Of a stretch of DNA of 64,000 bases, positions 23,974-51,566 are shown one piece after another. This DNA comes from Alteriqipengyuania flavescens. Its GTDB lineage: Bacteria; Pseudomonadota; Alphaproteobacteria; Sphingomonadales; Sphingomonadaceae. The stretch spans positions 62,001-126,000 of the forward strand of contig NZ_CP129107.1 of assembly GCF_030406725.1 (NCBI RefSeq), read 5' to 3'. Positions within the stretch are counted from its first letter, which is position 1; each line of letters begins with the position of its first letter. Made by a program: the position numbers and the translations under genes. The notes beneath the pieces were generated by a model that did no database searches, had not been told where the DNA came from, and worked only from the letters and a program-made list of their open reading frames with translations.

Positions 23974-25125
<1,152 letters not shown>

Positions 25126-25150
25126 TTAGCCACAGGATGTGGCCTGTCGG

Positions 25151-25283
25151 GACTCCGCGGGTCAAGCGGCAAATTTGCCGCATGTTGCGAGCATTGGGGG
25201 AGAACGAAGCGAGTCCGACACAAGATGTTGAGTCCGCGCAGGACGCGCAGACTCGCCATCTTGTGGTGTGGCGCGAAAGACTC
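25151..25283. promoter_or_regulatory. GANTC cluster upstream of ccrM
   Basis: Five GANTC sites lie within 133 bp: 25151, 25211, 25230, 25250 and 25279. At this base composition about one site per 300 bp is expected. They lie between the broken SDR gene and the ccrM start, so CcrM could regulate its own gene through methylation, as is known in Caulobacter. A 16-bp perfect palindrome, GCGGCAAATTTGCCGC, is at 25166-25181. Confidence 0.65.
25221..25263. repeat. Imperfect inverted repeat carrying two GANTC sites
   Basis: CAAGATG at 25221-25227 pairs with CATCTTG at 25257-25263; about 16 of 20 bases match over the extended arms, and each arm carries one GANTC site (25230 and 25250). On the minus strand it lies after the SDR stop and before ccrM, so it could form an RNA hairpin or a DNA-binding site. 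Confidence 0.6.
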
Positions 25284-25294
25284 GCCCCGCCCCG

Positions 25295-26212
25295 TTAAAT
25301 GCGAAAGTCGATCCCGGTCAGCTCTTCGGAGCGTTCCCACAGCTTCTTCGCCAGCGCTTCGTCGCGTGCGCGGCGTGTCGCATAGGCACGGCCCGACGTG
25401 TTGCCGCGTGCCTCCAGCAAGCCGCGGGGTCCGTAGTAGTGTCCGCCCTGCGCTTCAGGGTCGGTCGCCGCTTGCAGCGCGGGGATTGCCCCCTGCTCCG
25501 GCGTGTTCAGCATGATCTTCATGACCGGCGTGAACAGCGCGGCAAAGCCGATGTGGCGCGTCAGCTCGGTCGCGGCGACGCCGGGGTGGCAGGCGATGGA
25601 GGCGACGGGCGATGCAGCGGCGCGCAGACGGCGGTCCAGCTCCAGCGCGAACAGCAGGTTGGCCAGCTTGCTTTGCGAATAGAACGGGCTGCGGGCGTAT
25701 TATTTGCTCGCGTCGAGATTGTCGAAACCGATGTTGCCGCTCTTGTGGGCGATGCTGGACTGCACGACCACGCGCCCGCCGCCATCCTCTGCCAGCTTGC
25801 CGACCAGCTGGGCCGCGAGCGCGAAATGGCCCAAGTGGTTCACGGCGAACTGCAGTTCCGTGCCCGCGGTCGCATGGCCGAGCGGCGGCATCATTACGCC
25901 GGCGTTGTTGATGAGTAGATCGATGCGCGCCTCTTCCTTCGCCTGCTGCGCAGCCCTGGCCACGCTGTCGAGGTCGGCGAGGTCGAGGGCGAGGAAATCG
26001 AGCGAGGCGCCCGGGGCGTCGGCAGCAATTTCGGCGATCGCATCGCGCGCCTTGTCCTCGTCGCGGCAGGCAAGCACCACGCGGGCGCCCTTCATGGAGA
26101 GGTGGCGCGCAATCTCGTAGCCGATGCCGGTGTTCGCGCCGGTGACGATGGCGGTCTTGCCGGACTGGTCGGGAATATCGGAAAGGGTGAAGTTTCGCAC
26201 GGCGTGCTCCAT
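25295..26212 (-). pseudogene. Short-chain dehydrogenase with in-frame stop codon
   Basis: The frame encodes a classical SDR close to retinol dehydrogenase-like proteins: TAIVTGANTGIGYE (cofactor motif), NNAGVM and VVVQSSIAHKSG. After DNLDASK it meets a TAA at 25700-25702, then continues in the same frame with YARSPFYSQSKLANLLFALELD, which contains the catalytic YxxxK, to the end at 25295. One base change in a Tyr codon explains the stop. The ATG at 26212 has GGAA upstream. The truncated 170-residue product would lack catalysis; a sequencing error is also possible. Confidence 0.82.
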
Positions 26213-26263
26213 GGATCGGTTCCGGTCCAATGCGGGGCACCGCCGCTACGTTCCGTCAGGCGG

Positions 26264-51125: not shown

Positions 51126-51566
51126 ATGGAAAATTTCGAAACCGATTCCGCAGAAATGCTCATCACCCTGACGTCCGAAATCGTCGCCGCGCATGTCGCG
51201 AACAATTCGGTCGAGGTGAATCAGCTGCCCGAACTCATCCAGAACGTGCACGGGGCGCTTGCCGGTCTCGGTTCGCCCGCGCAGGCCGATGAAACCCCGC
51301 CCGAGCCGGCCGTAACGGTTCGCGCATCGGTGAAGCCGGATCACATCGTCTGCCTGGAAGACGGCAAGAAGATGAAGATGCTGAAGCGTCACCTGATGAC
51401 CGACCACGGCATGACGCCGGACGAGTATCGTGCGCGCTGGAACCTGCCGTCCGATTACCCGATGGTCGCGCCGAACTATGCCGAGAAGCGCCGCGAACTG
51501 GCCAAGAAGATCGGCCTCGGCCGCAAGCCCGGCCAGAAACGCGGCCGCAAGAAAAAGACGGACTGA
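51126..51566 (+). CDS. MucR/Ros-family transcriptional regulator
   Basis: This 146-residue zinc-finger protein is an H-NS-like global regulator that binds AT-rich DNA. The finger reads IVCLEDGKKMKMLKRHLMTDHGM, in which Cys-x2-Asp replaces the Cys-x2-Cys pair and the two His are spaced by four residues; this Cys-x2-Asp form is known in MucR proteins. A long basic tail (RKPGQKRGRKKK) follows. GGAGAG lies upstream of the ATG. A strong terminator separates it from fur. Confidence 0.93.
   Translation: MENFETDSAEMLITLTSEIVAAHVANNSVEVNQLPELIQNVHGALAGLGSPAQADETPPEPAVTVRASVKPDHIVCLEDGKKMKMLKRHLMTDHGMTPDEYRARWNLPSDYPMVAPNYAEKRRELAKKIGLGRKPGQKRGRKKKTD

Follow-up and report, generated by a model that had tools for sequence, protein, structure and literature searches.

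A dyad of GANTC sites in helical phase with a predicted promoter as a putative control region of ccrM in Sphingomonadaceae

To our knowledge, the control of ccrM expression (the gene encodes the cell-cycle DNA adenine methyltransferase CcrM) is largely open outside Caulobacter. The subject here is the region upstream of ccrM in Alteriqipengyuania flavescens, a member of the Sphingomonadaceae, on a stretch of 64,000 nucleotides (contig NZ_CP129107.1, positions 62,001 to 126,000; the whole stretch is called the window), where four GANTC sites make up an element laid out around a dyad (Module 1) and a fifth belongs to a predicted core promoter (Module 2). CtrA activates Caulobacter ccrM, which has GANTC sites at its promoter, only from hemimethylated DNA, according to a modelling paper (PMC2217572). 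GcrA is described as reading methylated GANTC at housekeeping-polymerase promoters (PMC7403470, PMC3667746), and its binding in Caulobacter, for example at ctrA P1, depends on GANTC methylation (PMC3667746). In the ftsZ promoter of the same organism, a conserved GANTC between −35 and −10 confers methylation dependence, promoter activity requiring both CcrM and the motif (PMC3708114). The gcrA promoter of Agrobacterium contains six GANTC in 250 bp and is repressed by CcrM methylation (PMC11514494), and in Caulobacter and Sinorhizobium the DNA-binding protein MucR competes with CcrM at promoter GANTCs (PMC5172544). For sphingomonads, GANTC methylation is supported in Sphingomonas sp. AAP5 (PMC8067484), a survey of ctrA (not ccrM) promoters lists one to five GANTC in Sphingomonadales (PMC8116508), and ccrM of Sphingopyxis granuli is repressed 7-fold without oxygen (PMC6472365), which suggests that the gene is actively regulated there. 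Brilli et al., considering 37 alphaproteobacterial genomes, concluded that promoter GANTC counts of cell-cycle genes do not allow methylation control to be derived (PMC2877005).

The locus in A. flavescens shares the presence of GANTC sites at the promoter with ccrM of Caulobacter but differs from it in their arrangement; moreover, the Caulobacter promoter is CtrA-activated, whereas no CtrA box (TTAA-N7-TTAA, relaxed pattern) is present in the window copy. Among 62 aligned copies from relatives such a box occurs in 13, in some of them between Module 1 and Module 2. The locus has a GANTC at the promoter in common with ctrA P1, but it places four of its five sites ahead of the −35 box and arranges them in a dyad seen only at ccrM. 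An upstream four-site dyad or a rule of helical phase is not mentioned in the accessible text on the ftsZ and mipZ promoters (PMC3708114). The Agrobacterium gcrA promoter is similar in that a cell-cycle regulator with a GANTC-rich promoter region is under CcrM control, but it concerns another gene in another order, and neither dyad nor phasing is mentioned in the accessible part of that paper (PMC11514494). MucR-occluded sites likewise resemble the situation here in that a protein would contend with CcrM for promoter GANTCs; MucR matches, however, occur in genomes with and without the element, and no link to the ccrM dyad is apparent. No description of the element was found in the literature searched, the coverage of which mostly excludes subscription papers. 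The parts of the region are the following:

23974 to 25110, minus strand: ccrM, cell-cycle DNA adenine methyltransferase (Pfam and NCBIfam matches)
25200 to 25283, minus strand: Module 1, the 84-bp upstream element, GAGTC-N24-GAGTC-N15-GACTC-N14-GACTC-nTTTCGTTC (62 distinct aligned copies and a sequence model)
25279 to 25283, minus strand: outer-left GANTC (GAGTC on the ccrM strand), at the same spacing in 52/62 copies and one base further out in 8 more
25250 to 25265, minus strand: left half-site CACAAGATGGCGAGTC with the inner-left GANTC (25250-25254), which is intact in 59/62 copies
25235 to 25249, minus strand: 15-nt centre, conserved in length, barely in sequence (columns of 0.01-0.66 bits)
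25219 to 25234, minus strand: right half-site GACTCAACATCTTGTG with the inner-right GANTC (25230-25234), which is intact in 56/62 copies
25211 to 25215, minus strand: outer-right GANTC (GACTC on the ccrM strand), the least conserved of the sites, intact in 36/62 copies
25202 to 25208, minus strand: TTCGTTC, the conserved border of Module 1 (columns of 0.80-1.79 bits)
25160 to 25165, minus strand: predicted −35 box TTGACC, 77 bp from the dyad centre, which is one of the observed helical classes
25151 to 25155, minus strand: promoter GANTC directly downstream of the predicted −35 box (window sequence)

On the ccrM strand, 36 nt of spacer thus separate the TTCGTTC that ends the border of Module 1 from TTGACC, behind which lies the fifth GANTC. 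Comparison of related sequences strongly supports a regulatory role of these sites, and Module 1 is very probably an operator through which a bound protein acts on the ccrM promoter. Feedback of methylation through this operator is plausible, and we lean slightly towards it; the whole, a two-part control region of ccrM in which a phased operator and a core promoter are joined to methylation feedback, is the reading that we favor with some reservation.

The conservation of Module 1 is the decisive evidence, not the density of its sites. A first set of 110 upstream segments (the window, 29 related genomes, and 80 named contigs) contained Module 1 with a score >25 in 63 cases, and 62 distinct copies were kept; the segments dropped were without the element, were spaced differently (in several, the centre has 14 nt), or came from other orders. 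The two genome sources partly overlap (e.g., L003 and L039 have the same upstream sequence). In a larger, even draw, a sequence-only model of Module 1 (R1) matched 96/119 genomes of the family at E ≤ 1e-6, and in each of these 96 at a single place. Among 35 same-family genomes, 30 matched at E ≤ 0.1 (23 at E ≤ 1e-6), each beside ccrM by coordinates, and of 73 previously unseen matching loci, 71 are followed by the CcrM motif DPPYN and the remaining two, by reading, by a CcrM-like N-terminus. Every place compared adjoins ccrM. The original prediction had made conservation of the sites in close relatives one of its two tests, which the fixed spacing in 62 copies and the matches in 96/119 family genomes bear out.

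Outside the family, only one of 24 genomes matched, weakly (G053, E 0.011) and, by reading, inside rnhB. This match, like two extra weak ones in G014 (before a nuoA-like frame) and G030 (over a kinase-like frame), was considered as a second copy and treated as chance; the names of the latter two frames are provisional. A convincing second copy of Module 1 was found in none of the genomes searched. Across 59 genomes, the half-site pattern GACTCNANATNNTGTG was matched 13 times, in 12 cases at ccrM, and although GANTC-N15-GANTC is present at six places in the genome of the window, the one at ccrM alone has the GAGTC/GACTC arrangement. The element stays in the company of ccrM despite differing upstream neighbors: in the window genome, the RNase HII gene is separated from ccrM by two genes, one for a Na/Ca exchanger and one for an SDR, whereas in some relatives (e.g., L005 and L010) the end of the RNase HII gene, by reading, directly adjoins the upstream side of the element.

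The distance between the dyad centre and the predicted −35 box varies in a constrained manner. A single TTGAC lies 60-120 bp from the dyad centre in 61/62 copies (L021 being the only one without), at 77 bp (3 copies), 86-89 bp (43), 97-99 bp (14), or 108 bp (1), and the gaps between these classes are empty. At 10.5 bp, the vector length of these distances is 0.915; the TTGAC-to-start-codon distance of the same copies yields 0.284. A CcrM tree of the 61 rows requires 10 switches of distance class; for the main class, the number is 9-10 across bootstrap trees, and well-supported branches force 8 of these. The short class comprises three separate cases, the window copy (77 bp) being one. All 61 measurable training copies are within 2 bp of the phase. 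The 73 newly fetched loci included two identical to training copies, so 71 were tested, two of which had no measurable TTGAC; 68 of the 69 measurable ones deviate from the predicted phase by no more than 2 bp, and the remaining one deviates by 2.5 bp. Loci in which the right-half anchor scored below 0 (13/73) were kept, and where more than one TTGAC was in range (5/71), the distance was measured to the one that lay ≥60 bp away and was followed by a GANTC. With well-scoring anchors, 46/46 held-out loci are in phase, at distances of 69, 79-81, or 89-90 bp. Outside the main class, 18/18 training and 20/20 held-out copies are in phase, when 36% would be expected for uniform distances. The distance thus shifts by whole turns only, which is the mark of a helically phased operator, while the spacer sequence between Module 1 and the −35 box has diverged. 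A protein on Module 1 would therefore have to face the promoter complex from one side.

Within Module 1, the inner GANTC columns carry ∼1.5-2.0 bits each, and conserved bases extend well beyond GANTC. The central base is almost fixed by position, GAGTC on the left and GACTC on the right, with one GATTC among the intact sites. Set against the extended GcrA/CcrM-type motif YGAKTCG (as cited in PMC7987155), the base preceding the inner-left GAGTC is C or T in 51/62 copies, and the base following it is most often C (48%) instead of G. Of 65 held-out copies with a left-half score over 5, 49 have a centre of 15 nt and 16 have one of 14 nt.

The density of sites had been the starting point of the original prediction, which saw five GANTC in the 133 bp before the CcrM start, against an expected one per 300 bp or so. 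All five were verified (starts at 25151, 25211, 25230, 25250, and 25279), and the expectation is correct for the base composition (1 per 316). They do not, however, form one cluster: four constitute a single unit, Module 1, and the fifth belongs to the predicted promoter. Similarly, the imperfect inverted repeat said to hold two sites in its arms is real (25219-25239 and 25245-25265, 86% complementary), but all four sites are laid out around the dyad. The window contains 59 GANTC (44 of them A/T-centred) when dinucleotide shuffles predict 284, a ∼five-fold depletion. By comparison, the median density upstream of ccrM is 6 per 300 bp (50 genomes), the figure elsewhere being 0.37 per 300 bp (64 loci), and ccrM upstream regions are dense in GANTC also in families without the element.

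Module 2, TTGAC followed by one GANTC in the window and by two in most relatives having it, would represent the core promoter. The pattern TTGAC-N1..5-GANTC is present in 42/50 genomes and 52/64 loci, where shuffles lead to expect 0.2 and 0.34, respectively; the 64 loci are what remained after 16 from clearly other alphaproteobacteria were set aside, 6 of which also have the pattern. A second GANTC, which the window copy lacks, follows in 34/50 genomes (0.01 expected from shuffles). Module 2 was found in 14/15 loci examined from other families of the order, in which a convincing Module 1 was absent, so that Module 2 looks like the older part. Two further features accompany it in the window:

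25166 to 25181, no strand assigned: perfect 16-bp palindrome GCGGCAAATTTGCCGC adjoining the −35 box, possibly incidental (window sequence)
25126 to 25134, minus strand: TGTGGCTAA, a degenerate form of TGTGGATAA (window sequence)

The palindrome is not clearly conserved; a relative with the same short spacing, L043, has a near-palindrome in its place. The TGTGGATAA box, which is DnaA-box-like, follows the promoter in many relatives, and TGTGGANAA occurs in 12/50 and 36/64 upstream regions.

The gene downstream is confidently assigned to the CcrM family by its N6_N4_Mtase and RAMA domains and by its top NCBIfam model, CcrM (E 2.4e-182), although the score of 606 bits is under the curated cut-off of 830 for that model. 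Its GTG start at 25110 was matched by eye to the ATG in relatives, and a CcrM match is present in 57/59 genomes searched. Immediately upstream of the element, the SDR gene (25295-26230, minus strand) is split by an in-frame stop at 25700-25702, past which the frame is open on to 25295-25297; the gene is either a recent pseudogene or affected by a sequencing error.

Module 1 would, in the mechanism proposed, serve as an operator, its four fixed-spacing GANTC sites around the dyad being bound by a symmetric, at least dimeric, protein that has to keep to one particular side of the helix with respect to RNA polymerase. Methylation of the operator sites by CcrM would alter the binding or the activity of this protein, and replication, through hemimethylation, followed by remethylation would time the on-state of ccrM in a feedback loop, the operator either activating or repressing the gene. 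Such a switch had been predicted by analogy to Caulobacter. The regulatory role gains strong support from the conserved spacing, the single copy, and the helical phase, but the analogy holds only loosely, being of the CtrA type when the window copy has no CtrA box.

As to the proteins involved, none of the matches to GcrA, CtrA, and MucR models tracks Module 1. GcrA matched in 59/59 genomes (in that of the window at C1:307767-308411), with a model that is imperfectly specific, given that among 14 control genomes it matched Caulobacter but also Sulfolobus. Because it is a known reader of methylated GANTC and ftsZ provides a precedent, the most economical assumption places GcrA at Module 2, and by this analogy it is the leading and most likely candidate among known methylation readers, at least at the promoter GANTC. 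The conserved bases beyond GANTC make an additional or different protein likely at Module 1. CtrA, which matched in 36/40 genomes at a strict threshold, was rejected as the binder, as its boxes are found in a minority of copies and G020 has Module 1 without a close CtrA match; so was MucR, which matched in 52/59 genomes, with and without the element. A MucR homologue is encoded in the window itself (51126-51566, plus strand; ROS_MUCR, E 9.6e-52), with three GANTC near the start of its gene, one upstream (51071) and two within (51144 and 51218). In the window genome, the ctrA promoter contains a motif similar to a portion of the half-site, but this motif lies among TTAA words, its exact 11-mer occurs in 3/18 ctrA loci examined, and it was not equated with the element. 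Several related ctrA promoters (in the window genome L194, ∼1400-1440) share TTAACC...TTCAC...TGTGTGGTTAA between TTAA words, a stretch with no apparent relation to the ccrM element. Citromicrobium bathyomarinum and a close relative (L048 and L009) keep the promoter module and lack Module 1, which most of their relatives have; this natural loss could help to find the binder.

A functionless chance cluster could be invoked because 284 sites placed randomly, the number from the shuffles, yield a 133-bp stretch with five sites in 46% of 64-kb placements (P 0.46), so that density alone would not carry the finding; the 59 real sites give P of about 7.5e-4 over the window, and conservation, fixed spacing, and held-out helical phasing reduce this explanation to a negligible one. 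A structured RNA or terminator, that is, a transcribed repeat that folds and either ends the upstream transcript or controls the ccrM mRNA, is tempting when the window copy is folded (−38.8 kcal/mol, z −4.5, equalled by 0/200 shuffles), and 74% of paired cells in the 62 copies contain standard pairs. Over the same copies, however, neither pairing nor covariation of paired positions exceeds that of shuffles (479/500 and 381/500, respectively, reach the observed value), RNAalifold predicts zero pairs for the consensus, no Rfam match was found in the stretch searched, the sole terminator-like match in the region lies elsewhere, and the element is upstream of the predicted promoter, to which helical phasing would have no obvious meaning for an RNA. 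An RNA hairpin was rejected because covariation and consensus pairs are lacking, and the RNA explanation in general is very improbable. The half-site columns, on the other hand, match each other: agreement between the left and the complemented right columns is best in the dyad register, reaching 0.351 for offset 0 and no more than 0.198 for offsets up to 8, and both sides share their tolerances, one paired column holding C in 62/62 copies on either side and another holding G or A and, in some copies, C. This pattern is the trace that would be expected of two half-sites read independently by identical protein subunits. Matching half-sites, no covariation, and a near-random centre therefore argue for a DNA site of a symmetric protein and not for an RNA hairpin. 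The repeat arms also show a possible likeness to NrdR boxes.

Several observations speak against a methylation-reading control region in the form favored here. Five of the 35 same-family genomes had no Module 1 match at E ≤ 0.1, so ccrM can manage without the element, and since the outer-right GANTC is intact in only 36/62 copies, not all four sites can be needed. The presence of GcrA also where the element is absent means that co-occurrence does not single it out. A scan of the region for a consensus promoter found none and identified no −10 box, which leaves the promoter a prediction. The vector length is nearly equal at 10 and 11 bp (0.899 and 0.906) and, with 43/61 distances in one class, is not specific by itself; the phasing argument therefore rests on the empty gaps between distance classes. 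Finally, the conserved bases other than GANTC and the near-fixed central base suggest a sequence-specific, perhaps methylation-indifferent protein. This last point leads to a rather unlikely alternative, namely, that Module 1 is the operator of a transcription factor dedicated to it in sphingomonads and blind to methylation; GANTC would then belong to the sequence that this factor recognizes, and the connection with CcrM's target would be partly coincidental. Such a factor would account for a central base fixed by position when most GANTC in the window are A/T-centred, for conservation well outside GANTC, and for the restriction to one family (30/35 matches against 0/24 elsewhere, counting the weak match in G053 as chance). 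It fits less well with the half-site having no other target that could be found (12/13 pattern matches are at ccrM), and with GANTC being depleted in the window yet dense upstream of ccrM even in families without the element. The single site at ccrM also makes autogenous control possible, in which a CcrM dimer would bind the doubled GANTC sites as an operator and repress its own gene. The sites are CcrM's own substrate, and the lack of a convincing second copy in the genomes searched is as expected in that case; CcrM, however, occurs also in genomes without the element, and we know of no recognition of the conserved flank by CcrM, so that this explanation appears improbable.

Returning to the methylation-sensitive operator, its most specific form, in which a symmetric regulator (a novel factor or CcrM) would read up to four GANTC and gate the promoter from one face of the helix, is put forward only tentatively. 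For sphingomonads, the control of ccrM would receive a specific answer, a single conserved operator made of the enzyme's own sites. The geometry of the element predicts which changes should break control, and the element itself is a ready bait for its binding protein. If a dedicated methylation-reading operator is indeed what Module 1 represents, the methyltransferase gene would, in most of the family, sense its own marks after each passage of the replication fork.
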